Assembly (NCBI GenBank): GCA_016647705.1
Contig: CM028325.1
Coordinates: 29,368,474-29,432,473 of the forward strand
Source of the DNA: Eucommia ulmoides
Taxonomy: Eukaryota > Streptophyta > Magnoliopsida > Garryales > Eucommiaceae
Length of the DNA: 64,000 nt
Direction of reading: 5' to 3'
This document shows, piece after piece, positions 9,171 through 51,664 of the stretch; position 1 is the stretch's first letter; every line of letters begins with the position of its first letter. The position numbers were made by a program, and so were the translations under genes. The notes beneath the pieces are model-generated. The model was not told the origin of the DNA. It worked only from the letters and a program-made list of their open reading frames with translations, and did no database searches.

Positions 9171-10345
9171 TACCAAGCAGTACGGTATGTTCTCATTGAC
9201 GGTGTTATGTACCGCAAGTCATTCCCAGGTCCATACTCCAGGTGCCTACAACCTGAGGAGGCCGACTACGTGATGAGGGAGGTTCACGATGGCATTTATG
9301 AAAACTATTCGGGGGGTAGTTTGTTAGCTCGGAAGCTACTCTTACACGATTACTATTGGCTCAAGATGCTTGAAGATATGGGGGAATTTGTTAAGAAATG
9401 TGACAAAAGCCAATGGTTCACTACGCACCCTCACGCCTTGCCAACCAAGCTGATGCCAATGACCAGCCCATGGCCCTTCGCCCAGTGGGGTATCGACCTT
9501 CTCAGCCCATTCCCTCAGGGTGTTGGGTATAGAAAATTCCTAGTCATAAACATCGATTACTTCACAAAATGGGTCGAGGCTGAGCCCCTAGCCCGAATAA
9601 CCAAGGAGAAAATCCGAGACTTTATTTGGAAGAACGTGATTTGTCGATTTGGCATCCCAAAAGCCATTGTATCGGACAATTGGAGGTAGTTTGACAATAA
9701 TTTATTTGCCGAGCTCTGCTCCGGGCTGAGGATCAACACTCAATGTTTCTCCCCGGATCATCCCTAACCTAACGGTTAGGTTGAAGTCACCAATCGGACC
9801 ATTTTACAAAATCTGAAGACTAGGTTGGATAAATCTAAGTGGTTATGGGTGGAGGACCTATACCCCATGTTGTGGGCTTATCATACGACAACTCGAACCC
9901 CTAGCGGTGAGATGCCCTTCACCATGACCTTTAGCTCAAAGGCCGTCATCCCGGTCGAGATGGGCCAGCCCTATCCCTGGACTGCAGCTGCCTTCAACTG
10001 AGCCGAGAACAAAGCAGCTCTGGTGCTCAATCTTGATCTACTAGAAGAGATGAGGGAAAGAGCTCAGGTCCGTTAGGCTGCCTACCAGCAAAGAACAACC
10101 CGATACTATAATCAACGGGTTCGACCTCGATTATTTGACATAGGCGACTTGGTCTTGAGAAAGGTCACGTTAACCACCATAGACTAAAGTGTTGGAAAAC
10201 TATGGGAAGGGCCTTGTTGAGTCGCTCGAATAGCCCGGCCTGGTACCTACAACTTAGAAACAGAGGAAGGGGTACCCTTAAGACACCCTTGGAATGCCGA
10301 ACACCTGAAGCGTTACTATGAGATAGAAGAGCCAACTCCTTATAT
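9171..10345 (+). pseudogene. Ty3/Gypsy Tat-lineage integrase (broken)
   Basis: Reads as the HHCC zinc region (about 9,280-9,420), the DDE core with IDYFTKWVEAEPL near 9,553-9,590 and IVSDNWR near 9,667-9,690, and a C-terminal tail ending HPWNAEHLKRYYE near 10,290-10,325, a signature of Tat integrases. The conserved G after SDN is W here and a stop follows at 9,687. More stops lie near 9,764, 9,776, 9,999 and 10,074. The element's 3' part continues until the Tekay-like element enters at 10,610, and again after 20,962. Confidence 0.88.
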
Positions 10346-23935: not shown

Positions 23936-24350
23936 AATTTTAATTCAAAAATATTATCATAAATCCGGTAGTTACAAAAATAAATCTCGAAGTCCCTTAA
24001 AATTTCACTCCAAATTATAACGAAAATTCGACCACCCTTAAAATTCAACCACCCTTAAAATACGACATTTAACGTCATCAAACGGGCCTTAAGCTTTATT
24101 GACAACTGATTGTCATACTACAAACCGACCATATATACACCCATTTAGGAGCATGTGGCCGTATGTGGAGAACGAAAAACAGCATACATAACATCAGAAA
24201 CTATATATATTCTTCAGTTCTTCAAGTACATACACGCAGCTTAGCTCATGGGAAGGAGCATAAGCTTATTTGAAAGGGCAAAAAAAAAAAGTACACGCTC
24301 ACACTCAAGAAACATCACCCTTACACTAGTTAATTCACTTGTCACAACTA

Positions 24351-24410
24351 GTTAACAGGTGAAACCTGTTGTGACAACTAATTAACAGGTGAAACCTGTT
24401 GTGACAACTA
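24351..24410. repeat. Two 30-bp direct repeats, each with an inner palindrome
   Basis: Two copies of TTAACAGGTGAAACCTGTTG plus GTGACAACTA-type sequence, directly downstream of the first dehydrin stop (likely in its 3' UTR). AACAGGTGAAACCTGTT is an inverted repeat. The right-hand block has only one decayed unit. Confidence 0.85.
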
Positions 24411-24452
24411 ATGCACCAACATATATATGTAATAATAATATTATATATATGT

Positions 24453-25301
24453 TCATTTGCCATGGCCAGGAATCTTCTCCTTGATCTTCTCCATCATTCC
24501 CTTCTTCTCCTGCTGCTCTCCTTCATATCCATATCCACCGGTAGTTCCGTACTGTCCCTGTCCTTGTCCTTGTCCCATGCTCTCATCCCTCTGCCCACCT
24601 GGAAGTTTCTCCTTGATGTTCCCCATCATTCCCTTCTTCTCATGCTGCTCTCCTCCTCCATATCCATATCCACCCGTGGCTGGGGTAGTTCCGTACTGTC
24701 CCTGTCCTTGTCCCATGTTTTCATCCTTGTGCCCACCTGGAAGTTTCTCCTTGATCTTCTCCTTTATCCCCTTCTTCCTCCTTCCACCCTGCCCATCGTC
24801 CTCCGACTGCAAAAACCCCCCAAAAAAGTTACATTTAGACATCGAAGTCTAGAATTATAAGCAGACTAGATTCCACCAAAAAGACATTTAAGAAAAACTC
24901 ACCGAGCTAGAGCCTGAGCTGCCGGAGCGCTGCAGCACGCCACCGCGACGCTCACCTGTGCCTGTGCCTGTTCCATATTGACCTCCAAAACCGCCGGTTC
25001 CAGCTTCAGTACCGTACGCCCCGGTGCCACCGGTTGCTCGGCCTTGGGTACCGTACGCACCGGTAGTTCCCTTGGTTTCGTGCTGTCCCTTGGTTCCGCC
25101 AGTCTGGCGAGCTGGGTTTCCGTACTCGTCGATCTGGCGACCCTCCCGGCCGTGTTGCTCTCCAGTCTGGTGAACTGGGTTTCCGTACTCGTCGGTCTGG
25201 CGACCCTCCCGGCCGAGTTGCTCTCCGGTCTGGCGAACTGGGTTTCCGTACTCGTCGGTCTGGCGACCCTCGCGGCCATATTGCTCTCCGTACTGTGCCA
25301 T
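24453..25301 (-). CDS. Dehydrin, Y3SK3 type, two exons
   Basis: Exon 1 is 25,301-24,903 and exon 2 is 24,806-24,453, with a 96-bp GT-AG intron of phase 0 inside the S-segment, a usual intron place for YnSKn dehydrins. The product is 250 residues: three Y-segments (DEYGNP at residues 16-21, 37-42 and 58-63, spaced 21 apart), a Gly/Thr-rich middle, the S-segment SGSSSSEDD around 127-137, a basic RRKK at 142-145, and three K-segments ([42 protein letters not shown]). There is no signal peptide or membrane segment. Dehydrins (LEA group 2) are disordered proteins that bind membranes and proteins through K-segments and protect cells during drying, cold and seed maturation. The start is the only Met before the first Y-segment and fits the MAQYG start of the family. 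Confidence 0.95.
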
Positions 25302-25409
25302 GTTTCAGAAAACTTCTAAACGCGAAATGATAAGCCAAATTCGAACTTCTGATTGCAATAAACGATGATTGAGAAGTTGTGGATGAAAGGATGGATTGAA
25401 GTTCAGGGA

Positions 25410-25539
25410 TTATATAGGGAAAAGAAAAAGGGCCTGTACGAGGAGAACTTCAAATCTTGAACGTGTATGGCAGGAGAGAAGAGCAGGTGCCACGTGGAGG
25501 CCGTACTGACACGTAAGTGTCAGAGATCCCATAACGTGG
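25410..25539 (-). promoter_or_regulatory. Dehydrin promoter: TATA box and ACGT-core (ABRE/G-box) cluster
   Basis: On the minus strand a TATATAA box lies at 25,410-25,416, about 110 bp before the ATG. Upstream are ACGTGT (25,461), the palindromic G-box core CACGTG (25,491-25,496), ACACGT (25,509) and AACGTGG-type sequence (25,533). Clusters of ACGT cores are bound by bZIP factors of the ABF/AREB group, consistent with control by ABA or dehydration. Confidence 0.75.
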
Positions 25540-26775
25540 CTGCTTCAGGAGGCAGATGGATAAATGTGTGGTTGGATCGCCGGCCGACAGGGGGGAGGGG
25601 ATAAGGTTAAGGGGGCAGGTGGAGCCGTTGCTCCTCGTAGTCCGTTTCGAAAAGTGACCGACGTTTTTGCCGCGTATACTATACGTTATTTTATGGACCT
25701 TGTGGATGACGATTGATGTAGACAAAATCCAAAATATCTCATTACAGATAAGCATGGGTTTTCAGTTAAATTGTGGGGCCCGTGAAGGAAATGCATATGA
25801 CTCCGTGACTTGATTGGGCTGAAGCTCAATCCTCTTGGGCTATTTAAGAAGGCCTGCTTGTAAAGATATGCTCAAATTGTTGGGCTCCTTTGTTTCAATA
25901 GTTTTATTCATTGATAGAATTGGAAATGTCTATGGCCTCATTTTGGGGTTGAGGTTTAGCACTTTTCTCTATACTTTATTTCTTTAACTCCAAAAATCTA
26001 CTCACTATCTGAAGAGAATTTACCTATATTCCAAAATTGAAGACAAATTTTGAGAAGGTTGAGGCTATGGGAAAAAAATGACCCTTAGAATCTTGACAAT
26101 TGCCTAATGTAAATGTCTATTTAAGTTGGAGTAAAAACATGTTTCTAAATAGGTAAATTACTATTTCTGGAGGCATTTGATCAATTTGTCCAATTCAAAT
26201 GCCTATTGCGATTGGAGTTACTCTTACTTGGTTAAATAATTACATTTTGGCTACACATTAACAAATTAAAAAAAAAAACTCATAATCTGTAATATATCAT
26301 AAAATTGGAGTTTTGAAATCGAAAATTAATACATATAAAAATCTAGAAAAATCCATTCAATTTGTAATTATAATTTCAATGTTTTGATTTTGTACTACTA
26401 AACACTATGGGGATGAGGTTTCTTTGTTATTATTATACAGTAATAAAGTATGCCCGGTCCAACTTAACTAATTATCTCCCCCCGGATGATCTTAATGGCA
26501 CACTCCCCCATATCACTCTGGTGCATTCAAGATTAAATTCAAAGTTAAATTCATGCAGTGCTCTCCAAAAGAGTCAAACCTTAGTTGAGAAAGAAAAGAG
26601 AAAACTGTTATTTCTTATCTATTATTTGGGAGCTATAATTACTGCTTGCCAACAAATAAAAGAGTGATTCTCAATTTACTGTCGTGTCTAAAGGCAAAAC
26701 AATTATAAGAGAAAAATCATGAGGCAAATTACCCTACAGCAATAAATAATGCAACTGCACAAAAATGAAGACTGT

Positions 26776-26871
26776 ATTTTTTTAACTCACACACCCATTC
26801 ATGGGTCTAGTGAGAATTGATCCCCAGACCTCTGGCCTGGAAAGATAAGACCTTACCACTAGCCCACTATC
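26776..26871 (-). mobile_element. SINE-like tRNA-derived element (left block)
   Basis: On the minus strand it begins TAGTGGGCTAGTGGTAAGG, which resembles a pol III A box, then has a B-box-like GGTCTGGGGATCAATTCTCAC, and ends with an A-rich tail. The same element lies at 37,099-37,200 in the other block. No target duplicate was resolved. Confidence 0.45.
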
Positions 26872-27299
26872 GACGAAATGATGCAGCTAGAGGACGTGGA
26901 GAGTGAAGGAAGAGATGGGCCTAGCATGAAGCATAAGAGTCTGTCTAGCTAGCCGAAGACGATTGCCTGCTAACTAAACCAAAACCAAGGGGGACAGAAA
27001 AAGAACCCTCAATTTGGTTGGAGCAGGCAAGTCATCCTTGGCTACCAAACCAAAGACTCTTGACCCCATGTAAGGCCTCTCCTCCTTTGAACTATCAACT
27101 ATATACCAATGTTAGGCTATGATTTGGTTGAAGCCTACCAGTCTCTATTTATAGGCTTATACCCAATTAGCAACTAGATATCATTCAGAATCAATTATGG
27201 CATCTCTTAATCCAACAATCAAATTACCATCCCCCATCTCTCTCAAATAGAAATCCCCCTTTACGGCTACCATATGTATTTGCATCACCTCTCATACGG

Positions 27300-27835
27300 A
27301 GGGTAATAGTTCGGTTTCACTATAAATCAAAACACCAAAATTAAAACCAAAATCAAAACAATTACACATATACCAAACCCAAAACCAAAACCGTCAGTTT
27401 TTTAGAAAACGGTTTTAAAACCGAACTATTTAATTTTATGCAAAACCAAAACTGTGAAACTATTAAGTTTTTTTAATTTTATATGAAACCAAAACTACAG
27501 TGAAATCATGAACCATTATTTTTATTAATAAACAACAACATAACTAAAATATCAGAAGAAATTATAAAAACCCTAAAATTAGATCAATTAACCTATAACA
27601 TATATAATAAAATAAATAAATAAAATGAAGGTAATATATATCTAATAAAAATATATCTAAAAAGTCAATTACGCAGTTCGGTTTTACGGTTGCTATCTCA
27701 AAACTAAAATCAAAACCAAAACAGCTTTTGTATTCAGTTTCAAAACCAAAACCATTTAATCAGTTTCAAAACCGTACCATTCAGTTTGGTTTAATTCGAT
27801 TACCGTTCGGGTTAAATTGTTAACCCTACTCTCTC
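27300..27835. repeat. AAAACC/GGTTTT-rich repeat tract (left block)
   Basis: Many CCAAAACCAAAACC-type runs, ending in GGTTTGGTTTAATTCGGTT-like sequence. No frame or RNA gene was seen. The right-hand block has the same tract at about 37,640-38,150. Confidence 0.6.
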
Positions 27836-28487
27836 ATTTCCAATAGAGGAATATGTTCCCCTGTTTCCATTTTGAGCACCTCCAAATGCACGCACCTTTA
27901 TGGTCTTATTTCAGCAAATATACTCTCAGGAGACAGACAGAATTTCAACGCAGGAGAAAATTTCTTTTGAATAAGCAACTTGCACTGAATCATATTCTTA
28001 TTTGACATTTACCTCCTTCAAAAGGGAGCCTGAAAATTGTATGGAAGCTGTGGGCAGCCAAAACTTTGCCTCCCTTCTCTTTCTCCACCAGTTGATGTGC
28101 ATGTATATCACCATAAGAATATGTAAAGTCGCATGCATTCTCGGTCGGCATTATGACTAAAGATCAAGTGGGACATCGAATTTGCACCAAATGTCAAGTG
28201 TGATATCAGAACACAATTTGTTGTTCATCTGATTTGATCTTTCACTCAAATGTAGAAAAACAGATGGTATGATTCTTCCCTGAAAAAAAGAAAAAACATG
28301 GTTATCTTCTTCTAGTCAGCCATGGATTCAATCACAAACTCTGTTTTTCATTCAAGTAACAATTCTACTAGCAATTCAACACACTTCCTGCACTCATTTG
28401 AATCATCACGTGATTGCAAGAGTGACGAAATTGAAATGTGGTTAGTGGTGGTGTAGTTGGTTTGACCATATCCTCTACATCGGTTTT

Positions 28488-28930
28488 TGTTGAATCCCAC
28501 ATCGCTTGTGTTACCTAATCCTGAGCTATACATAAAGCCTCGAACAATCCTCATCTTACTTACAAGGTGTCTTTTGAGAGTGAGTTGAGCCCATTGGATT
28601 TCTACATGATATCAAAGCTAGGATTCTTGTTTGATGTTGGGTGTGTTGAATCCGACATCGATGTTGGACCCCCCGATTTCCGTTCATAGTGGTAAGTCAA
28701 AAAGTCCACCTTACATGTGAGAGAACGTGTTGAATCTCACATCAATGTTGGGCCCTTCTCCTGATATATGTTTGCAATGATTTGTCAAAAAATTCACTCT
28801 ACACCTGAGATGGCCTTTTGAATCCCACATCGCTTGTGTTACCTCATCATCAGCTATATGTAAAACCTAGGGCAATCCACTTCTTACAAGGCGTCTTTCG
28901 AGAGTGAGTAAGGCCCCTTGGATTTCTACA
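28488..28930 (+). mobile_element. TRIM (miniature LTR retrotransposon), intact ends
   Basis: A 443-bp element with ~117-bp direct LTRs (28,488-28,606 and 28,816-28,930) starting TGTTGAATCC / TTTTGAATCC and ending CTACA. TGATATCAAAGC, a decayed initiator-Met primer site, directly follows the first LTR; the other block keeps TGGTATCAGAGC. A perfect GTTTT target duplicate flanks it (28,483-28,487 and 28,931-28,935). It has no coding capacity, as expected for a TRIM. Confidence 0.85.
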
Positions 28931-29373
28931 GTTTTAAATGTTTAATACTTTGAAATTGAAAATGTTTGAACTTACATAAATATGACAACTGGGCGCATGC
29001 ATTGTGGGGGAGATCGAGTTCCGAATGCTCATCCACAAACTTCTTCAACGATGTGCCATGCCAATCTCAAAGAGCAGTTAAAATATATTGCTGTGTACAG
29101 AAGTAAGCCATACGCAAATCATGGAGAAAACATATAGAACTCTTGCAAGGTCCGAAAAATGTAATTGCAATTCATATGAATGATCATCCCAACAGCATAA
29201 ACACTCTAGATTTAAATTATTTCCACACATTAATTGAGGGAATGCTATTGCCTACCACATAATATGACTGGACAGATGAAATCCCCTTCTCTTCATTAGG
29301 TGTTGTAACAATTCTCTTGTGTCCTTCGAATTCTCTAATGCAAATATCTTTAATTTTGGAACACAGTTAACCA

Positions 29374-29533
29374 TTACCTCCTCAAGGATGATAGAGAGAA
29401 ACCAGGTATGAATTCATTCGAAGGCAGACAACCCATGTTTGCAGACTCCAAGGTTTTAATCACCTCTTTTGTTTGGGATTCTAGCATGTAAACTTCATCG
29501 ACTTGATTCTTTTTTACCCATTCTTCTACATTC
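29374..29533 (-). pseudogene. Orphan last exon of a UBE3D-like gene (left block)
   Basis: This is a 160-bp copy of the terminal exon at 39,678-39,837. It keeps the AG acceptor, the reading frame and the TAA stop, and encodes the same start NVEEWVKKNQ and end GFSLSSLRR. The changes seen against the working copy include a silent CAG/CAA. No upstream exons exist in this block, which ends at 30,114 inside the former intron. It can therefore not make the protein unless spliced into another transcript. Confidence 0.85.
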
Positions 29534-30114
29534 CTACATAAAACTCAATTTTCATGCACTTGGCATAACAGAAAAGAGAGAAAAGTGTACTAACTAAAAT
29601 TCATAAAAATTTGAAAATTCATTAAAACCTAAACACAAGTTTCTTAATTGATTTAAAAAAGAAAAGGATATTAATGATCATCATGAACATGTTTTCTTTG
29701 AAAGTTGAGAATTGTATATCTTTAGTCAAAACAAATCTGTGGTCGATAATAATTCGAATTGACAATATAAATCACATTTCTAGCTAGCATTTTCTTGAAA
29801 TCCAGCAATCACATTGTTAAAGATTGTAAACTAGAGAAACAGCATACAGTAGTTTAAGGTCAAGACAAGAACAAATAGTAATATTACTAATAGGTATTTT
29901 GTGGGCCATCTAATGACCAATATGCCCTTTATTTCATTTTGATTGTGTCATACAACTCTCTGACAAAGTTTGGCAACCTTTTAATTGACCTAATGAGCAA
30001 AGTTTGGCAACACTGCGTTTACCTTTAGAACACAGGATTCGGCACGAGATTAGAATGGATTCGGCACGGGATTAGAATGGTCATGGGAATGATCAATCTA
30101 TTCCTATGGTTGGT

Positions 30115-30446
30115 ATTATTACAAGAGGGAATGTGGTGAGAGCTGCCCTTCAGATTAAAAAGGCATGCGAAACTAATAATAATGCCTAGCTGATGACATC
30201 TTCATCTTGAGGTGCTGAAACTGAAAAGGTAAGGCTACTACTTACAGAAGAAGAAGAAGAAGAAGACTCTCTTTCACAATATATATCATCCATTCATATT
30301 CATATGTTGTAGAAATATTTATTATAAGCATACGAGACTAAACATTGCTGTTTGGCTCCGCGATTAGGCGGTTTTTCCTTTTTCCGGGATGATCAAATTT
30401 ATGGGTTTCTTCGGTTCGCAATGTGATAATAGTTTTATTGAAACCG

Positions 30447-33990: not shown

Positions 33991-34609
33991 AAAATGACCT
34001 ATTGGTGCAAAATAAAAGTGATGGGAAACAAAAAAAGATGAGAGCAATCGGTGATTTATTTTTTTTTTCATTTTGGGAGTAAATGATGCATGCCCCAATA
34101 ATGATAATTATTTAAACTTTTAATGAAGTGCAATTATTTATTTTTGATTTATTATCACCTTTGATATCAACTATTAATTTTTTTTAATATAAATAATTAT
34201 AGATAAAAATTAAATGTAATATTTAAAAAAAAATTATAATTATTTAGAGTGAAAAAAAATTGTATAATATTTTTAAAATTTTTAAAAAAAATATTCTTAA
34301 AAAATAAACGCAATAAATTCACCCCTTCAAATTTTAATATTTTGAAATTCAAAAACAGGACCGTAGATTTATTGACAACTGATTGTTAGAGACTACTACA
34401 AGCGGGCTATACATATATAACATCTGGAACTATATATTCTTCAGTTCTTCAAGTAGAAACACATTGCTTAAGCTCGTGGGATCAAGCATAAGCTTATTTA
34501 ATTTAAAAAAAAAATACACACAAACACAACAAAAACACCACCCTTGTTAAGTGAAACCTTTTTGTGACAAGTAGTGCACCAACATATATGTGTAATAATA
34601 TATATATAT

Positions 34610-35761
34610 TCAGTAGTTGTGGCCAGAAAGCTTCTCCTTGATCTTCTCCATCATTCCCTTCTTCTCATACTGCTCTCCTCCTCCATATCCATATCCATAT
34701 CCATCGGTGGCTGGGGTAGTTCCGTACTGTCCCTGTCCATAGCCAGTCTGGCTAACTGGGTTTCCATACTCGTCGGTCTGGCCGCCGGTCCGGCGAACTG
34801 GATTTCCATACTCGTCGGTCTGGCCGCCGGTCCGTCGAACTGGATTTCCATACTCGTCGGTCTGGCGACCCTCGCGGCCGTATTGCTCTCCGGTCTGGCG
34901 AGCTGGATTTCCGTACTCGTCGGTCTTGCCGCCGATCCGGCTAACTGGGTTTCCGTAATCGTCGGTCTGGCGAGCTGCATTTCCGTACTCGTCAGTCTTG
35001 CCGCCGATCCGGCTAACTGGGTTTCCGTAATCGTCGGTCCGGCGATTTCCGTACTCGTCGGTCTTGCCGCCGATCCGGCTAACTGGGTTTCCATAATCGC
35101 CGATCCGGCTAACTTGATTTCCATAATCGCCGGTCTGGCGAGCTGGATTTCCGTACTCGTCGGTCTGGCGAGCTGGATTTCCATAATCGTCGGTCTGGCC
35201 GCCGATCCGGCTAACTGGGTTTCCATAATCGTCGGTCTGGCGGCGAGCTGGATTTCCGTACTCGTCGGTCTGGCGAGCTGGATTTCCATAATCGTCGGTC
35301 TGGCGGCGTGCTGGATTTCCGTACTCGTCGGTCTGGCGAGCTGGATTTCCATAATCGTCGGTCTGGCGGCGTGCTGGATTTCCGTACTCGTCGGTCTGGC
35401 GAGTTGGATTTCCATAATCGTCGGTCTGGCGGCGTGCTGGATTTCCGTACTCGTCGGTCTGGCCGCCGATCCGGCTAACTGGGTTTCCATAATCGTCGGT
35501 CTGGCGGCGAGCTGGATTTCCGTACTCGTCGGTCTTGCCGCCGATCCGGCTAACTGCGTTTCCATAATCGTCGGTCTGGCGAGCTGGATTTCCGTACTCG
35601 TCGGTCTTGCCGCCGATCCGGCTAACTGCGTTTCCATAATCGTCGGTCTGGCGAGCTGGATTTCCGTACTCGTCGGTCTGGCCGCCGATCCGGCTAACTG
35701 GGTTTCCATAATCGTCGGTCTGGCGACCCTCACGGCCATATTGCTCTCCGTACTGTGCCAT
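34610..35761 (-). CDS. Repeat-expanded dehydrin, about 27 Y-segments and one K-segment, intronless
   Basis: A 383-residue continuous frame. It starts [21 protein letters not shown], as in the sister gene. Then it carries about 27 Y-like segments (TDEYGNP, TDDYGNP and variants) joined by alternating linkers such as VSRIGGK and ARRQ. Residues 365-383 are one K-segment, [15 protein letters not shown], plus HNY. The usual KLPG is KLSG here. Twelve segments are exact TDEYGNP. There is no S-segment, RRKK, intron or Gly-rich middle: after the last Y-segment the sequence joins [12 protein letters not shown], which in the sister gene lies in exon 2 between K-segments. A deletion thus fused the Y region to the C-terminal K region, and unequal exchange then expanded the Y array. 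Family knowledge points to a hydrophilic, disordered stress protein; what so many Y-segments do is unknown. No stop or shift interrupts the array, which argues for a working gene. Confidence 0.9.
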   Translation of the reverse strand: MAQYGEQYGREGRQTDDYGNPVSRIGGQTDEYGNPARQTDDYGNAVSRIGGKTDEYGNPARQTDDYGNAVSRIGGKTDEYGNPARRQTDDYGNPVSRIGGQTDEYGNPARRQTDDYGNPTRQTDEYGNPARRQTDDYGNPARQTDEYGNPARRQTDDYGNPARQTDEYGNPARRQTDDYGNPVSRIGGQTDDYGNPARQTDEYGNPARQTGDYGNQVSRIGDYGNPVSRIGGKTDEYGNRRTDDYGNPVSRIGGKTDEYGNAARQTDDYGNPVSRIGGKTDEYGNPARQTGEQYGREGRQTDEYGNPVRRTGGQTDEYGNPVRRTGGQTDEYGNPVSQTGYGQGQYGTTPATDGYGYGYGGGEQYEKKGMMEKIKEKLSGHNY

Positions 35762-35872
35762 GTTTCAGAAAAAAATAAATAAACGTGAAATGAAAAGCCA
35801 AATTCGAACTTCTGATTGCAAAAAACGATGATTGAGAAGTTGTGGATGAGAGAATGGATTGAGGTTCACGGT

Positions 35873-35965
35873 TTATATAGGGAAAATTAAAAAAAGGGTT
35901 TGTAGTACGAGGAGAACTTCAAATATTCAACGTGTATGGCGGGAGTGAGTGCAGGTGCCACGTGG
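35873..35965 (-). promoter_or_regulatory. Promoter of the Y-rich dehydrin: TATA box, ACGTGT and G-box
   Basis: TATATAA at 35,873-35,879 is about 112 bp before the ATG. ACGTGT (35,930) and CACGTG (35,959-35,964) are kept. The sites matching ACACGT and AACGTGG of the sister promoter have changed (GACACAT) or are missing, so this promoter has two of the four ACGT elements. Confidence 0.7.
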
Positions 35966-37098
35966 AGACCTGTACCGACACATAGGTGTGAGAGATCACA
36001 TAGATGGATAAATGTGTGGTTGGATTGCCGGCCGACATGGGGGAGGATAAGGTTATGGGGGCGGGTGGAGCCCTTGACCGACGTTTTTGCCGCGTATACT
36101 ATACGATATTTTATGGATCTTCTCGGTGACGATGCATGTGGACAAAATCCAAAATCTCATTATGGATAAGCCTGGGTTTTCAGTTAAATTATGGGGCCCG
36201 TGAAGGATATGTATATGACTATTGACTACATGGCTTGATTGGGCTGGAGCTCAATCCTTTTGGGTTATTTAAGAAGGCCTGCTTTTAAAGATATACTCAA
36301 ATTGTTGGGCTCCTGTTTCAATATTTTTATTGATTGATAGAATTGGAAATGTCCATGGCTTCATTTTGTGTTTGAGGTTTGACCCTTAGAATCTTGACAA
36401 TTGGTCACCAACAACAAAATATTTGAAGGCTTTGAGAGAATTGCCTAGTGTAAACGTCTATTTGAGTTGGAGTAGAAACATATTTCTAAATAGGTAAATT
36501 ACTATTTCTTGAGGCATTTGATCAATTTATCTAATTCCAATGCCAGTTGGAGTTGCTTTTACCAGGTTAAATAATTACATTTTAGCTACACATTAACAAA
36601 TTGAAAAAAAAATAAAAATCTTAATCTATAATATATCATAAAATTGGAGTTTTGAAATCGAAAATTAATACACATAAAAATCTAGAAAAATCCACTCATT
36701 TGTAATTCTAATTTGAATGTTTTGATTTTGTAATACTAAACACTATGGGGATAAGATTTCTTTGTTATTATTATACGGTAAGATGTGTCTAGCCCAACTT
36801 AACTAATTATCTCTCTGAACGATCTTATGAGCACACTACCCCCACATCGCTCTGATGCATTTAAGATCAAATTCATGTAGTGATCTCCAAAAGAGTCAAA
36901 TCTTGGTTGGAAAAAAAAAAGCGAAAACGCTTATTTATTATCTATTATTTAGGAGCTATAATTACTGCTTGCCAACAAATAAAAGAGTGATTCTCAATTT
37001 ACTGTCGTGTCTAAAGGCAAAACAACTATAAGAGAAAAATCATGAGGCAAATTACCCTGCAACAATAAATAATGCAATTGCACAAAAATGAAGACATT

Positions 37099-37200
37099 TT
37101 TTTATTTTTTTTTAACTCACACACCCACTCACGCACCCGGTGAGAATCAATCCACATACCTCTGGCCTGGGAAGATAAGGCCTCACCATTAGCCCACCAT
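37099..37200 (-). mobile_element. SINE-like element (right block)
   Basis: Counterpart of 26,776-26,871, with the same A-box-like start and a longer A/T-rich tail next to a T run. Its presence in both blocks shows it was there before the duplication. Confidence 0.45.
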
Positions 37201-38815
37201 CGACCAAATGATGCAGGTAGAGGAGGTGGAGAGCGAAGGAAGAGAAGGGCCTAGCATGAAGCATAAGAGTCTGTCTAGCTAGCCAAAGACGACTGCCTGC
37301 TAACTAAACCAAAACCAAGGGGGACAGAAAAAGAACCCTCAATTTGGTTGGAGCAGGCAAGTCATCCTTGGCTACCAAACCAAAGACTCTTGACCCCATG
37401 TAAGGCCTCTCCTCCTTTGAACTATCAACTATATACCAATGTTAGGCTATGATTTGGTTGAAGCCTACCAGTCTCTATTTATAGGTTTATACCCAATTAG
37501 CAACTAGATATAATTCAGAATCAATTATGGCATCTCTTAATCCAACAGTCAAATATAGCATCCCCCATCTCTATCAATTATAAATCCCCCTTTACGGCCA
37601 GCGTATGTATTTGCATCACCCTCTCATACGGAGGGTAATAGTTCGATTTCACTAGAAACCAAAACCAAAACAAAAACAAAAACAATTACACATATACCAA
37701 ACCCAAAACCAAAACCGTGAATTTTTAAGAAAATAGTTTTAAAATCGAACCGTTTAATTTTATGCAAAACAAAAACCATAAAACAATTAAGTTTTTTTAA
37801 TTTTATATGAAACCAAAACTACAGTGAAACCGAACCATTATTTTTATTGATAAACAACAACATAACTAAAATATCAGAAGAAATTATAAAAACCCCTAAA
37901 ATTAGCCCAATTAACCTATAACATATATAATAAAATAAATAAATAAAACAAAGGTAATATATATAATAAAAATATATCTAAAATGTCAGTTACGCAATTC
38001 GATTTTACGGTTGCTATCTCAAAACTAAAACCAAAACCAAAACAACCTTTGTTTTCAATTTCAAAACCAAAATTATTTAATTAGTTTCAAAACCGAACTA
38101 TTCAGTTTGGTTTAATTCGGTTACCACGTCGGTTCGGGTTAAATTGTTAACCCTATCCTCTCATTTCCAATAGAGGAATATGTTCCCTTGTTTCCATTTT
38201 GAGCACCTGCAAATGCACACACCTTTATGGTCTTCTTTCAGCAAATATACTCAGGAGACAGACAGAATTTCAACGCAGGAGAAAATTTCTTTTGAGTAAG
38301 CAACTTGCACTGAATCATATTCTTATTTGACCTTTACCTCCTTCAAAAGGGTGCCTGAAAATTGTATGGAAGCTGTGGGCAGCCGCAACTTTGCCTCCCT
38401 TCTCTTTCTCCACCAGTTGATGTGCATGTATATCACCATAACATGTAAAGTCGCATGCATTCTCGGTCGGCATTATGACTAAAGATCAAGTGGGACATCG
38501 AATTTGCACCAAATGTCAAGTGTGATATCAGAACACAATTTGTTGTTCATCTGATTTGATCTTTCACTCAAATGTAGAAAAATAGATGGTATGATTCTTC
38601 CCTGAAAAAAAGAAAAAACATGGTTATCTTCTTCTAGTCAGCCATGGATTCAATCACAAACTCTGTTTTTCATTCAAGTAACAATTCTACTAGCAATTCA
38701 ACGCACTTCCTGCACTCATTTGAATCATCAAGTGATTGGAAGAGTGACGAAATTGAAATGTGGTTAATTGTGGTGTAGTTGGTTGGACCATATCCTCTAC
38801 AACGGTTTGTCGCTT

Positions 38816-39235
38816 GTGTTACCTAATCCTAAGCTATACATAAAGCCTCAGACAATCCTCATCTTACAAAGTGTCTTTTGAGAGTGAGTTGGGCCTATTG
38901 GATTTCTATATGGTATCAGAGCTAGAATTCTTGTTTGATGTTGGGTGTGTTGAATCCGACATCGATGTTGGGCCCCCCGATATCCATTCGTAGTGATTTG
39001 TCAAAAAGTCCACCTTGCATGTGAGAGAGCGTGTTGAATCTCACATCAATGTTGGGCCCTTCTCCTGATATCTGTTTGCAATGATTTGTCAAAAAATTCA
39101 CCCTACACGTGAGAGGGCATGTTGAATCCCACATTGCTTGTGTTACCTCATCCTCAGCTATACGTAAAACCTCGGGCAATCCTCATCTTACAAGGCGTCT
39201 TTTGAAAGTGAGCAAAGCTCCTTTGGATTTTTACA
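38816..39235 (+). mobile_element. TRIM (right block), 5' LTR start deleted
   Basis: Same TRIM as at 28,488, but the first ~13 bp of the 5' LTR and part of the left target duplicate are missing. The primer site TGGTATCAGAGC is intact here (about 38,910-38,922). The 3' LTR is 39,120-39,235, followed by the target duplicate GTTTT. Confidence 0.85.
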
Positions 39236-39677
39236 GTTTTAAATGTTTAATACTTTGAAATTGAAAATGTTTGAACTTACATAAATATGACAACTGGGCG
39301 CATGCATTGTGGGGGAGATTGAGTTCCGAATGCTCATCCATAAACTTCTCAACGATGTGCCATGCCAATCTCAAAGAGCAGTTAAAATATATTGCTGTGT
39401 ACAGAAGTAATCCATACGCAAATCATGGAGAAAACATATAGAACTCTTGCAAGGTCCGAAAAATATAATTGCAATTCATATGAATGATCCTCCCAACAGC
39501 ATAAACACTCTAGATTCAAATTATTTCCACACATTAATTGAGGGAATACTATTGCCTACCACATAATATGACTGGACAGATGAAATCTCCTTCTCTTCGT
39601 TAGGCTTTGTAACAATTCTCTTGTGTCCTTCGAATTCTCTCATGCAAATATCTTTAATTTTGGAACACAGTTAACCA

Positions 39678-39952
39678 TTACCTCCTCAAGGATGATAGAG
39701 AGAAACCAGGTATGAATTCATTCGAAGGCAGACAACCCATGTTTGCAGACTCCAAGGTTTTAATCACCTCTTTTGTTTGGGATTCTAGCATGTAAACTTC
39801 ATCGACCTGATTCTTTTTTACCCATTCTTCTACATTCCTGCATAAAACTCAATTTTCACACTTGACATAACAGAAAAAAGAGAAAAATGTACTAACTGAA
39901 ATTCATAAAAATTTGAAAATTCATTAAATCCTAAACACAAGTTTCTTAATTG

Positions 39953-39986
<34 letters not shown>

Positions 39987-42900
39987 AGATATTAATGATC
40001 ATCATGAACATGTTTTCTTTGAAAGTTGAGAATTGTATATCTTTAGTCAAAACAAATCTGTGGTCGATAATAATTCGAATTGACAATATAAGTCACGTTT
40101 CTTAGCTAGCATTTTCCTGAAATCCAGCAATCACATTGTTAAAGATTGTAAACTAGAGAAACAACATACAATAGTTCAAGATCAAGACAAGAACAAATAG
40201 TAATATTAATAATAGGTATTTTGTGGGCCATCTAATGACCAATATGCCCTTTATTTCATTTTGACTGTCACACAACTCTCTGACAAAGTTTGGCAACCTT
40301 TTAATTGACCTAATGAGCAAAGTTTGGCAACACTACGTTTACATTTAGAACACAGGATTCGGCATGGGATTAGAATGACCATGGGAATGATTAATCTATT
40401 CCTATGTTTGGTACATGAGATTAAATTACATACCCATTATCAATAATTTCCTAATCCCACAAAACATGGGATTAACCACTACCAAGATAAACTTTGTAGT
40501 AGTTAATCATAATTACATGAGATTAGGTTTTAATCATTTATCGGCCAAAAAATGCGACCAAACACTAACCAAATATTGGAATTAGAATGAAATTTAATTA
40601 AATTACTATTTACTCTTTGAATTTCTAACAAATATATCCCTTAATTTATTTATTTTTAAATTTTTACACTTCCCTCCCCCGTCCTTCCTCCCTACACGAT
40701 CTTCTCTCTCATATTCTAATTAACCCCCCAAGTCCCCACCGGTACCATCACCTCGACCCTCGGTAACACCACTGCCCACGCTCCGTCGGCCCCCACCCCC
40801 AATCCACCGCCTCCCTCTTCTTCTTCTTCTTCTTCTTCTTCTTCTTCCTCCTCCTCTTCTTCTTTTCTCTCTCTTCTTGACATACACAGACGTGCGCGCA
40901 CGCACACACACATATATATCTTATTTGAAACTTTATTTGGTTTATGTTCAAATATTTTTTATTTTAAAAAATTATATGTTTTTCAAGGGGAGACTTTATT
41001 GTACAAATGCATTCCATTCCTGATTTATTCTCAACATTAATCAAACATTGGAATGGAAATGGTCATTTCAATACCACATTTAATTCCTTTTGTCACTAAA
41101 CATAGGAATGGTAATAACCATTCCATTCCATTATCATACTAACTCCAATCTTATTATCATTTCATTCCATTACCATACAATCTTCAATCCTATTATCATT
41201 CCATTCTATTTTAGGGTACCAAAGGCAGCGTTAGTGTTTTGTTGCACATAATTGAAGCTTTGGAATCGAAATTGAATTTGTAAATGAACGCATGAAAAAG
41301 TCCAAAACTTTACATGCATTCATTTCAACTTCCAATTCTTCGCTTTCAGTTGCGTGCTTCCAAACCGCACGCTCCATGATTGTAAAACCAGTAAAACAAT
41401 TTTAACAAGCTTTTCCATGCCTTTTTATACACAAGGAACAAAGATAAATGATCGCGCAGAAGGTCAGACTTGAGCAACTAACCTCAACTGAAATTCAGTA
41501 CTCTTACTGCTGTCAGAAAATAGCACCTTGATGATAGGATACATATCTATTCTGCCAACTGGATCCTTGGTGCACAAACAATAACCAGAACAGCACCAAG
41601 AATTCGGGTTTAAGAGGACAATTTGCATCATAGGAGATTTAGTTTGCAAGTCCCTAACAACAGTACGAAATGATAATTCGTCTTTTGCACTTTCAAGCAG
41701 CTGACTTGTGAACATCCTCTCCAAAGTGTAATTCCTGTCAAAGATGATCATGTATGTTGGTGATGAATTTCATGTACAAATGTAAGACTATCTCATATAA
41801 TTTAAAAGATGAAGATTTTGTTAACAAAAGGATGGGGTAATCAACATAAAATACAATAAAATAGGATGAGGAGAAAAGAAGGAAAGAAGAAGAAAATTTT
41901 AAAAAATAAAATAAAAAATCCATAGCTAAAAAAACTTCCAAGTTCGCTTAGCATGAAAAAGAAAAAGAACTTGTATCTTTACTTTCCCTTATTTTCCGGA
42001 TTTTTCAATACCAAAGATTTATAAGAGAAAATTAACCAGGCATTGCTTTCAAAAGGAGAATGCAGAAGCTCATAACCATCCACTGTTCCAATGTCGATAT
42101 CAGACAAACATAGACCTACTCAATCGGACCAATCCCAGGGGGCGTACACTTCCATATTAAGAGAAATTGATAACACAAAAATACAGTTTTATAATTCAAA
42201 ATAAACACCTCCAGACCAAGATTGCGCAAGAATATTGCCATCATTATCACATTAAAATTTCTTCTAAAGTCATACTTTCCTACTCCTAAAAATATGGGCC
42301 ATAGACAGCAGCGTTTACATATATATTGTATATACATAATCCAACAATCAAGTTCAGAATATTTGGCCCTCCTTGATATATTATTATATCTTTGCTGAAT
42401 TAAAAGCCAATGCATCTAAGTCGACACCTGCAACCCCAACAGTTTATCAAAAGCTTAAACAACTTGCCCAGGAAAAAAAAATATGATTAGAAAAAGAAAA
42501 AAGAAAAAAAAAGAAACTGCAGGTCAAAGCACAATATTTTGTGGTAATGTTGCTTGCCTGAAAAAATCACTTGATCCGCCAACTGGCAAACTTGTTGAAA
42601 TGTAACATTTAAACAATCTAACTCCATTGTCAAATGGTGAACGACCATTAATGCAAGGGTATGCTCCAAGAAGACATGAGCATTGAGGGCATAAAAATTC
42701 AATCCACTGAACATCTTTAGAGAGATTGGACGATCTCTCCATGAAGGCGTTTCCAAGAAAGCCATTTAGGAAACTTTTCTTACATGCTTGGAGCTCAATT
42801 TCTGTTCCAGGCTTTCTCTCTCCGATAGAAGTTTCAGATGAACTATGAGTGCAGCATTCAGGATCGTGGTGTTGAATATGGTATCTTGTATTTGTGCCAA

Positions 42901-45271
42901 ATCCGGTTAACGTCGGTAGACTTTTGGTGATCTCCATTGCTGAAAACATATCAGATATATTACAATCATTATCTACGGTTTCAACAACTTCATCCTCTAG
43001 TTTGGAATCAGGTTTATCTTCCTTGGGAAAAGAGCAGCTCGCTTTTCCATTTGCATCCTGCATCTTTTGACTTTGATTGGCGGAGGAGTCATTTGCTACA
43101 AGTTTAGTATCAACTTCAGTCACATAATGGCCACTATCATGATTCACTTCAGGCAAACAGTTTCGGTTAGCATCCCAGTCAGGAAATATACATCCCAAAA
43201 GGTCATCCTTGCAGATAACAACAGTTGTCGTACTAAATAGGCATACACCTGATGCACACGTATATGCATTTGCATAACTGGTCACCAGCTTTTCGCTAAT
43301 ACCTCCAAATGAGCAACAACAAGATCCAAACCAGTTGTCAGCTACCTCTCGCCAGTTGACTGATGGCATTTCCTCAAAAAATCTGCAGTTTTTTAGGCAA
43401 CAAAAAGAATGAAGAAATGTTCAAAGTCTACTCAAGAAAAAGAAAAAAGAAAAAAAAAAAAAAAAAGAACTCTGATTTCATGGCCAGGGCATTTACCCAA
43501 TCATTAGATCAAACAACCATCATATGATGTCATAACCATAACCGTAACCGAATAAGAAAGCTTAGGGACCAATGGAAAAGTAAAGAAACATATATGAGGA
43601 AGTAAATAAAAATAGGTACATATAAAATTATCAAAATTCTAATACGAATATCATTGATTGAGCGACCCCCAGCAGCAATAAAGCATGACAAGAAATACGG
43701 CAAGAAGTAACAAGCAAGAAAATGCATCTACCTTAAGGATCTCGTCAACTTAGTTAAGCAGTTCCTGCAGTAGAAGTGCACCCCGTAGCTGGAAGAAAGA
43801 TTTTTAAGATCTGAAAAAGAAAATAAAAACAGGTAAGAAACTAAACGCATCACTTTCCGAGTTAATTCAAATTTGAAAAATTGATCAGTAACAAGTGAGG
43901 AAAAAACATGTATATGAGGTACATTGAAGTATAAAATCGGAGAGTAGAATGCAATTCAGATATTCAATTCTTAGTTCCAAAAAAAAAAAAAAAAAAATCA
44001 ATTCTGACATTTGGGATCTCATTGATAAATTGGTTCCTAAATATCAAACGGATTAGAAGTATTTAAGAAAGTAAGAGAAATTTTTTGTGATGGCCCTTCA
44101 CTATAAGTCATGGGTCATGGGTTGTAATGCACAAGCTCCCATAAAATAGAAATCGAAGTAAGAGAACAGGCAACAACCCTTCTTAACTCTGTAATCTGAC
44201 GCCAACAAAGTCTAGCATACAAGAAACTTGATCATATCAAACATTTCATGTCAGATGCGAAAGCAAAGGAATTCCGGCAGCAGTAAAGGAATAATGTCCA
44301 CTAAAAGGTTTCACTAAAGTGAGGAGATTTCTTAACATTTATAGATTCAAGCTCATGCATCCATTTAAACCAGTTGAGTTAAAAGAAAAAAATGAATCAC
44401 TTAACGAATTAAAATCTGTTGATAATCGAATAATACAGAACTCAAGATCCAACTATAGAAAATCATTCATGACATGCCATATCATGGTATGGCATGGCAT
44501 GTCAGAGAAAGGAGTAATCACTTGTAACACTAGTGAATTCCTAGAGAAAAATAAAGAGAAGTTCACTAGAACTCGTGCCCAGAAATGCGAAGCTTACCGG
44601 ATTACCGTTTTCGAATGGTAAAGATTTTCGATAGATAAGTGAAAATGTCGAGAGTAGAAAGTATGGTTAATATTAACTTTTTCATTGCTAGCCATTTTCG
44701 TAAGATATAAACCTCTAGATATGTAACAACAAAAGGTTCGAGAATGAGAAAGCAATATCAGAATACATCCAGAGAGCTACAGAAACAACAATATCTGCTC
44801 ACCAGAATCCTCAGAACGCGGATCAAATTCATCCATGAACGCCTTCTGCGCAGAATTCCCATCTTCTTCAGATAAATTTAGTACGGCGTCGAAATTGGAA
44901 ACGAGAGGGTGATCAACAGATAGAAGGAGAACCATCTTAACCTCAATGTGATCATCCAATGCTCTAACATTAACCGAGGACTCGGCGTCTATCAAAACCC
45001 TAGGAATCGGAACCTTAAGCGAAATATCGACGTCGCCCTCGGAAAAGCTCACCATCAGTAGCGATTGTGCCATTACCAAGTCGACTTTGATGCCGGTACA
45101 CTGAGTCGAAGGATTGACATCGGGATTGAAAAGGAATAACCGGAGGTTTGGGATCTGAGATTGGGTTTCCCATGTGAATCGCCAGTACCTGGGGTTTCCG
45201 GCGGCACGAAGTTCAGACGGCGACATAATTTCGATTTTGATTTTTCCTGAATTTGTGCTTTCGGTTTGCAT
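39678..45271 (-). CDS. UBE3D-like E3 ubiquitin ligase (E2-binding protein, HECT_2 family), five exons
   Basis: Exons on the minus strand: 45,271-44,803; 43,810-43,732; 43,382-42,558; 41,734-41,483; 39,837-39,678. Together they give 1,785 bp, 594 residues and a stop, with every junction in phase. Introns 1, 2 and 4 are GT-AG; intron 3 (42,557-41,735) is GC-AG, with donor CAG|GCAAGC. Landmarks are RYWRFTWETQSQIPNLRLFLFNP (45-nt downstream start region), FYCRNC in exon 2, WFGSCCCSFGG and LCPQCSCLLGAY in exon 3, RNYTLERMFTSQLLE and SWCCSGYC in exon 4, and EEWVKKNQVDEVYML and SLSSLRR in exon 5. The human relative UBE3D binds the E2 UBE2C and acts as a HECT-like E3; the plant role is inferred. The start may instead be the second Met (45,226, MSPSEL, 579 residues), which is nearer the family start. 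Exon 5 lies inside the duplicated block. Confidence 0.88.
40370..41225. repeat. Repetitive DNA inside UBE3D-like intron 4
   Basis: The edges carry ATTAGAATGACCATGGGAATG-like and CATTCCATTC-rich sequence in mirrored form (GGAATGG near 41,050 and 41,108, CCATTCC near 41,131-41,205). This is typical of a decayed DNA transposon. It includes a (CTT)n run at about 40,815-40,865. No gene was seen. Confidence 0.5.
41256..41375. mobile_element. MITE-like imperfect inverted repeat
   Basis: Starts TTTGGAATCGAAATTGAATT and ends with the near reverse complement, ...CGTGCTTCCAAA. The two arms pair imperfectly over about 45 bp each. It sits in intron 4 of the UBE3D-like gene. Confidence 0.5.
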
Positions 45272-50524: not shown

Positions 50525-51664
50525 ATGGATGATGTGTTTTGTGTATCTTCTTTTGATAGTGGTAAATGCGTAAATGATAATGTGGTTTATGATTCTTATA
50601 ATTTTAGTGGTAGTGATGGAGATGATGATAATGAAAATGTCCATATTATTATGGAAAAATTATTTTCTTTCACATTACTTTTTGCTAAAGAGAGCTTGAG
50701 TTTAAAAAGAAAAATCGATTCTTTTGAAAATGGTGGAAAAAGTGTTCAAAAATCTAAAATACATTTGGATGATTATTGTGGTTCAAAAAAGTATTCGGAA
50801 GTTGTTTTTGAAATTAATAATTTGTTCTCTAAAGTAGATTCTCTTGAAAATGAAAATAGAGTTTTAAAAAATAAATTTGATATGATTTCCAGGAAAATGT
50901 CAGATTTTGTTTCTAAAATCGATTTACTTAAGAAAAATTTTGAAAAATAAAAATCCGACCTTAAGTCTATTTCGAAAGATTCTGAAAATAATTTTTCTAA
51001 ACAAAGTGGATATACTTCATCGTCTCATCTTTCATCTCAGGCCAGTGATAGTTATGTTTCTATTGTTAGAAATTATTTATGTTTTATATCTTGTGCTTTC
51101 GATGATAAATCAGATTTGAGATGTTATTATTGTAATAGGGTTGGACATTTTAAAGTATCATGTTCGTTTCAGAACCTTAAGGTTATGTCTAATAAGGACG
51201 GATCCAAAATGAAATGGATACCGAAGAAAATTGTTAAAATGTCTTGTGCAGAATTACAAAATGTTGGAAGTAGACCTGAAGGAATAATTAAAGAGTTTAT
51301 ATCAAAACCAAATCCACAAGCAACATGTGCAAAGCGAAAAGGTGCACCAAAGATACGAGGTGAAGTTGTAAAGAAACCACAAGAGATATGTGTTAAGAGA
51401 AAAACTGTACTAAAGCCAAGATGGGATAGCATAAGAAAACCACAAGCAATCCGTGCAAAGGGAATCTTCAATAAATCAAATGGAAAAGATCAAAGGAAGA
51501 AAGAATACGAACAATCCAAGAAGAATTGCGCACCCAAATCAATTATGAGCTCAAATGAGGTAAAAAGTAAAGTCACCTCAAAAGATAGAAAATGTACTCC
51601 TAACCTCCCGTATTTTAAATTTATTAAATTTGTTAAAGAGGGAGAGTCCCGACTTACCAAATAG
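50525..51664 (+). pseudogene. Gag-like frame with CCHC zinc knuckle and one in-frame stop
   Basis: One frame runs 380 codons including its final stop and is broken only by TAA at 50,948-50,950. The part before the stop is acidic and then rich in Lys/Glu with a coiled-coil look (about residues 70-141). The part after it carries the zinc knuckle CYYCNRVGHFKVSC (C-X2-C-X4-H-X4-C, about 51,122-51,163), then a basic tail with repeated PQAxCxKRK-type units, and ends VKEGESRLTK. CCHC knuckles bind RNA for packaging. The downstream half has no ATG at its start, so readthrough or decay has to be assumed. Confidence 0.75.

Follow-up and report, generated by a model that had tools for sequence, protein, structure and literature searches.

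A Eucommia ulmoides dehydrin gene with 27 Y-segment units and one K-segment beside a Y3SK3 paralogue

Introduction

The dehydrins of Cornus sericea were described by Sarnighausen in 2004, in a paper whose title reportedly names cold-acclimated xylem cDNAs. Dehydrins are said to carry up to 36 Y-segments, with 26, 28 and 36 copies in three Cornus sericea proteins (AAL83426-8), and in one of these, Y36SK2, 15 of the 36 are described as weakly conserved (PMC11763121); elsewhere the range of Y repeats is given as 1–35 (PMC7076708). A Juglans protein of the formula (Y3K)8Y4(Y3)2 (XP_041020672) is listed with 34 Y- and eight K-segments (PMC11763121), the Physcomitrella dehydrin PpDHNA is described as Y11K with 11 amphipathic D-segments (PMC8100072), and the Y3K1 dehydrins of Brassicaceae are reported to have lost the S-segment and one K-segment after a duplication ascribed to a whole-genome event (PMC6364937). 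The role of the Y-segment has been described as undetermined (PMC8961592), and poly-Y supersegments have been called a fit subject for functional study (PMC11763121).

Here, we describe a dehydrin gene with a Y-segment array (the array gene) in a window of 64,000 nucleotides of Eucommia ulmoides DNA, this being the whole stretch analysed. The initial annotation had stated that most dehydrins have few Y-segments, which agrees with the literature as a general rule, although proteins with Y26, Y28, Y36, Y34 and Y11 have been published. Like the array gene, the Cornus sericea dehydrins reach their 26–36 Y-segments through internal repeats, the sets being compared by description; Y36SK2 differs in having an S-segment, two K-segments and a regularly repeated Y3 unit. 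The Juglans protein shares the YnKn type, the internal repeats and a comparable number of Y-segments, but interleaves its eight K-segments where the array protein has a single terminal one. PpDHNA likewise combines many Y-segments with one terminal K-segment, although no D-segment is visible in the array protein, and the Brassicaceae Y3K1 dehydrins show a similar loss of S- and K-segments but have only three Y-segments.

Because dehydrins of other plants have about as many motifs, the array dehydrin is best regarded as an uncommon form of an established type of protein and not as something entirely new. As far as could be seen, what is new is the combination of a very long Y array, one K-segment, no S-segment and no intron with a less-modified neighbour adjoining it, and a literature search, mostly of titles, returned no description of a Y27K1 protein. 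Its Y:K ratio of 27:1 is the highest among the few published multi-Y formulas compared (18:1 in Cornus Y36SK2 and 11:1 in the moss protein), a ranking that leaves out Cornus Y26 and Y28, whose K number is not given in the source.

Architecture of the array dehydrin

An uninterrupted frame of 383 residues with about 27 Y-segments, no S-segment and a single K-segment with KLSG had been annotated at this locus, and our analysis bears out each of these points. The coordinates and the length are exact (Table 1), 27 YGN-centred units were counted, no run of at least four serines, by which the S-segment of the YnSKn type is recognised, occurs anywhere in the 383 aa, and a scan with a K-segment pattern gave one match, at the C-terminus and of the KLSG variant. 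The PF00257 profile matched the protein at 8e-16 with 59.3 bits (cut-off 30.6), and the protein has both the K-segment that defines a dehydrin and, N-terminal to it, the Y-segments that define the YnKn type. On the evidence of its sequence, this is a real YnKn dehydrin gene.

Table 1. Positions of the dehydrin genes, promoter motifs, duplicated block and MIR169 precursor.
Feature	Position	Strand	Remarks
Y27K1 dehydrin CDS, single exon	34610..35761	-	383 aa, 42.2 kDa, pI 4.83
Array, 27 YGN units	34757..35719	-	26 spacings of 24, 30, 33, 42 or 63 nt
Sole K-segment of array gene	34622..34666	-	Preceding sequence matches the neighbour's pre-K2 linker; 3' side nearer neighbour K3
TATA-like TATATAA, array gene	35873..35879	-	At -118
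G-box / ABRE CCACGTGG, array gene	35958..35965	-	At -202; present in both copies
Likely former ABRE, array copy, ATGTGTC for ACGTGTC	35977..35983	-	Neighbour intact at 25508-25514
Neighbour Y3SK3 dehydrin (paralogue), 250 aa	24453..25301	-	Exon model inferred from sequence
Neighbour exon 1	25301-24903	-	
Neighbour intron	24902-24807	-	96 nt, GT..AG
Neighbour exon 2	24806-24453	-	
Duplicated block, copy B	34412..40413		Copy A 24183-30115; BLAST
MIR169 precursor, copy B	37261..37395	-	Twin 26931-27065 in copy A; above Rfam gathering score
Third cluster dehydrin, YSK2-type	C1 near 29,308,740-29,309,760	-	~94 kb from array gene

Twelve units read TDEYGNP and nine TDDYGNP, so that 21 of the 27 fit TD[DE]YGNP exactly, and the six altered units comprise two TDDYGNA and one each of TDEYGNA, TDEYGNR, TGDYGNQ and IGDYGNP. 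At the nucleotide level there are 16 distinct units. Lengths of mainly 10–11 residues and of 14 residues (TDDYGNPVSRIGGK/Q) frequently alternate along the array, and a leader peptide occurs twice, one copy preceding unit 1 and the other having three units after it. The protein contains 37 Tyr, 38 Arg and 10 Lys, with no Cys or Trp, and its GRAVY is -1.65; its mean hydropathy (0.316, against a boundary of 0.425) places it among proteins predicted to be hydrophilic and disordered. The AlphaFold2 (AF2) model has a mean pLDDT of 51.5 and a pTM of 0.20, with a non-helical K-segment.

We discounted a folded solenoid. Regular single-residue bridges span most of the first 205 residues of the AF2 model (block pLDDT 50–65; 37 of 383 residues at 70–90), but a wrong-frame control from the gene strand gave a much stronger strand pattern (25 strands of at least three residues, pTM 0.44, mean pLDDT 50.3, 20 of 362 residues at 70–90), and the bridges are thus read as the program's response to repeats, in a comparison with unequal inputs (for the array protein an alignment of 7 rows that consisted mainly of gaps in the repeat region, for the control no alignment). 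A Mucin-like PF16058 match (2.3e-10, above the cut-off) and six Cereibacter plasmid matches (32.6–33.9% identity) were taken as low-complexity resemblance, and a sequence search of the PDB gave no match at E up to 1.

Homologues were collected with three queries, namely the array (6 matches; 7996 candidates scored), the C-terminal region (2 matches) and the neighbouring dehydrin (best 120 of 393 matches), which together gave 124 stored proteins; since neither the Cornus sericea dehydrins nor the Juglans protein known from publications appear by name among the matches listed, this set is not a census. Proline is missing at the KLPG position in 10 of its 235 K-like matches, and the KLSG of the array K-segment is a mild variant. 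The best protein match among the matches listed (E 1.5e-22), a 223-aa DHN1-like protein of Cornus florida, resembles the array protein in having one K-segment and no S tract alongside several Y-segments; it has about one third as many of these and aligns at 39% identity over 38% of the array query. The Y-segment counts in relatives that had been called for were obtained in part, with eight YGN in this protein and the counting confined to the 124 proteins. The Cornus florida K-segment reads KLCG and, like KLSG, is non-Pro at position 14, giving two cases of an S-less, one-K, multi-Y dehydrin without this proline; it is also missing from nine further K-like matches, which belong to ordinary dehydrins.

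Duplication and origin of the array gene

The array gene lies in one copy of a ~6 kb block, containing a dehydrin and a MIR169 precursor, that is repeated directly ~10.3 kb apart. The dehydrin of the other copy shares its promoter, N-terminus and tail with the array gene and is the parent-like copy, although it differs in its length of 250 aa, its pI of 8.51, and its possession of an S-segment spanning the intron and of three K-like segments, two of which were matched by the K pattern used, the middle one being missed. Each of its three Y-segments is preceded by a leader, EQ[YLH]GREGRQ. The upstream flanks of the two copies differ at 7.0% of 4578 ungapped sites (K2P 0.074). Plant DNA accumulates substitutions at ~6e-9 per site per year, a rate at which the block duplication would be, as a rough figure, ~6 million years old.

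The tail of the array gene aligns to the neighbour's pre-K2 linker with K2 (88% over 116) and to its K3 (90% over 78), K3 being the better fit for the array K-segment, and the Y end of the array gene abuts the pre-K2-type linker directly. With alignment offsets subtracted, the two tail junctions omit 387 nt and 132 nt, each divisible by 3, and the 387-nt gap covers the remainder of neighbour exon 1, the S-segment, the intron and K1. Compared with the neighbour, the array gene is missing three parts, namely S-segment, intron and first K-segment; the K-segment that it does have looks like a fusion of K2 and K3. The third dehydrin of the cluster has an S-segment, an inferred intron, two K-segments (K1 among them) and one clear and one decayed Y-segment; because it possesses all three of the missing features, their loss from the array gene is the simpler reading. 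This third gene also carries a long Gly/Thr/His-rich linker. With two leaders in the array and one before each Y-segment of the neighbour, growth of the array appears to have taken place between the former first and later Y-segments.

Taken at the level of sequence, the duplication, the missing parts and the unit structure are direct results; the order of the steps is one that we infer. A Y3SK3-like dehydrin would have been duplicated in tandem, in-frame deletions would have removed the S-segment, intron and K1 and fused K2 with K3, and the Y region would have grown in frame by unequal exchange or slippage between units of 10–14 residues. We consider it reasonably probable that the array gene is such a tandem duplicate, altered by in-frame losses and Y growth, and that its product serves as a disordered hydrophilic shield.

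Promoters

The motif names ABRE, G-box, DRE and RY are used here in their customary sense. The promoter had been annotated as keeping its TATA box and G-box, and both TATATAA and CCACGTGGC are retained, but the picture of a preserved promoter holds only for this core: the neighbour has three ABRE-like matches (ACGTGTC at -213, GCCACGT at -239 and ACGTGGC at -194), and the array gene keeps the last alone. GCCACGT falls within a 21-nt gap of the array promoter alignment, and ACGTGTC was likely lost on the array copy, since the third dehydrin also has ACGTGTC, immediately upstream of its G-box. Relative to the neighbour, the array promoter has one extra DRE-like and one extra RY-like match. The remaining G-box would mediate transcription of the array gene in response to ABA or dehydration, and its motif content suggests that the array promoter responds less to ABA than that of the neighbour.

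Constraint on the array

Unit spacing and substitution pattern are stronger evidence of constraint than the open frame itself. Each of the 26 spacings between units is divisible by three, against 10 of the 41 indels found in the flank upstream. When all unit pairs were pooled over codons 1–7 of each unit, pN/pS was 0.25 in the dehydrin frame versus 2.77 and 0.91 in the other gene-strand frames. Neutral duplication was simulated with 1500 runs per setting, runs with a stop or zero change being dropped, and the observed value was reached in 9.7%, 4.1% and 1.0% of kept runs with 12, 20 and 30 mutations (1018, 800 and 591 kept, respectively); the observed unit diversity falls between the 12- and 20-mutation settings. 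Because a neutral process attains the observed pN/pS in 1–10% of kept runs, constraint on the coding of the units is likely but not proven, and the support for it modest. The array gene and its neighbour share only ~55 comparable codons, with four synonymous and four non-synonymous differences, too few to judge.

These data also bear on the possibility that the array gene is a decaying duplicate, weakly expressed and under relaxed constraint, with an array produced by neutral slippage and no job of its own. Such a fate would fit the absence of the S-segment, intron, K1 and two of three ABRE-like matches and a unit pN/pS consistent with neutrality at the 1–10% level, and the Brassicaceae Y3K1 dehydrins, which also lost S- and K-segments after duplication, are described as possibly pseudogenising, judged from low expression (PMC6364937). 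Against it, 1152 nt have stayed without a stop or frameshift while the upstream flank diverged by 7%, and Y, G and N are invariant in 27 of 27 units (selected by YGN itself, with a spacing that leaves no unit skipped), with Y and N codons varying synonymously. On balance we regard decay as unlikely, though to be taken seriously. With the promoter core kept and the units apparently constrained in the right frame, it is plausible, as the initial annotation had supposed, that the array protein is made, although part of the ABRE-like set has gone.

Function of the array protein

Of the functions initially named, nucleotide binding is made less likely by NMR work in which Vitis riparia YSK2 reportedly did not bind ATP (PMC8961592). 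Enzyme protection by dehydrins is reported to be size-dependent (PMC10816898; PMC8100072), so that a chain as long as the Y array should provide shielding. For the moss protein, lactate dehydrogenase (LDH) protection is given as 77% for the mutant Y11D11 (K-less by name), 48% for Y6D6 and 13% for a six-Y mutant with shuffled D-segments, and the authors credit the interleaved D-segments with much of the protection (PMC8100072), while the same work has elsewhere been taken to hint that multiple Y-segments have a role (PMC11763121). The weakness of the moss Y-segments without D-segments is evidence against strong Y-only activity, and an array with no visible D-segment and one K-segment would help to choose between the two readings. 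We envisage that the array protein, a long and disordered chain of acidic and hydrophilic character, would act as a shield in the cytosol or nucleus; any K-dependent binding to membranes would be weak at most, and the protein would not have the phosphorylation switch of an S-segment. By analogy with other dehydrins, it probably keeps the general size-dependent protection rather than having acquired a new biochemical activity. Consisting almost entirely of Y-segments, with one K-segment and no S-segment, this natural protein forms with the neighbouring Y3SK3 relative a matched pair for testing the Y-segment.

A more specific proposal, that the array protein is a sticker-and-spacer polymer which condenses on water loss through multivalent Tyr–Arg contacts, the number of Y-segments setting the threshold, seems to us rather improbable. 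Tyr accounts for 9.7% and Arg for 9.9% of the array protein, in sum 19.6%, compared with 11.6% in the neighbour and a mean of 6.9% (sd 2.2, maximum 14.3) in the 124 homologues, and over the first 340 residues their spacing is more even than in 2000 of 2000 shuffles, an evenness that any tandem array must give. Composition and spacing thus fit those of sticker–spacer proteins, and Tyr–Arg cation-pi contacts are reported to contribute to FUS condensation (PMC5927716); a literature search over titles and the starts of abstracts returned no description of Y-segment-driven condensation of any dehydrin. If true, this proposal would assign the Y-segment a biochemical role.

Assembly integrity, genome copies and alternative frames

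Tandem arrays are prone to misassembly, and the closest pair of 150-mers at in-frame offsets differs by one base, so that the true length or architecture of the array might be unlike the assembled one. We consider this very improbable: the longest exact internal repeat is 102 bp and no 125-mer is repeated, 250-mers at in-frame offsets differ at a minimum of 46 positions, and the locus lies within a 43.0 Mb contig of a 391-contig assembly. The 64-kb window contains no N, and signs of gross misassembly were not found in the assembled sequence.

Searching the assembly with the array protein (107 of 291 candidates scored) gave nine matches, of which one, the array locus, was full length, five fell on the two neighbouring dehydrins and three were weak, with internal stops. 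A whole-assembly search with PF00257 (20 candidates scored) found six places, the array locus not being among them; they include the two ordinary cluster dehydrins, two places on C7 and one on C10. One of the two C7 places, near 47,265,000, is a Y3SK2-like dehydrin gene: its three Y-segments are of the DEHGNP type, and it also encodes a Ser tract and two K-like segments.

The intactness of the frame, offered initially as evidence for the gene, stands as an observation but is weaker evidence than claimed, because a second gene-strand frame and one opposite-strand frame are open as well. That one of these, the 362-aa +1 frame on the gene strand or the 402-aa frame on the opposite strand, encodes the true product is scarcely credible, for although the former matches Keratin_B2 barely above the cut-off (30.6 bits against 28.7), this match and a below-cut-off DUF440 match are read as low-complexity resemblance, the 362-aa frame is the one with the pN/pS of 2.77 (in a test that covered the gene strand), and the start and K-segment common to the neighbour sit in the dehydrin frame.

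Other loci in the window

Rfam MIR169 families matched on both strands, and both copies of the duplicated block carry an identical 18-nt core, AGCCAAGGATGACTTGCC, on the minus strand, which is exact at 37356-37373 in copy B. The linkage of a miR169 pair with a pair of stress genes may merit attention. Elsewhere in the window, a retroelement-like ORF at 9207-9689 has integrase core and H2C2 zinc-binding matches below the Pfam cut-offs, and another at 51116-51664 has a CCHC knuckle match, also below its Pfam cut-off. A minus-strand ORF at 42524-43369, perhaps a host-gene exon, gave a sub-threshold HECT_2 (E2-binding) match.
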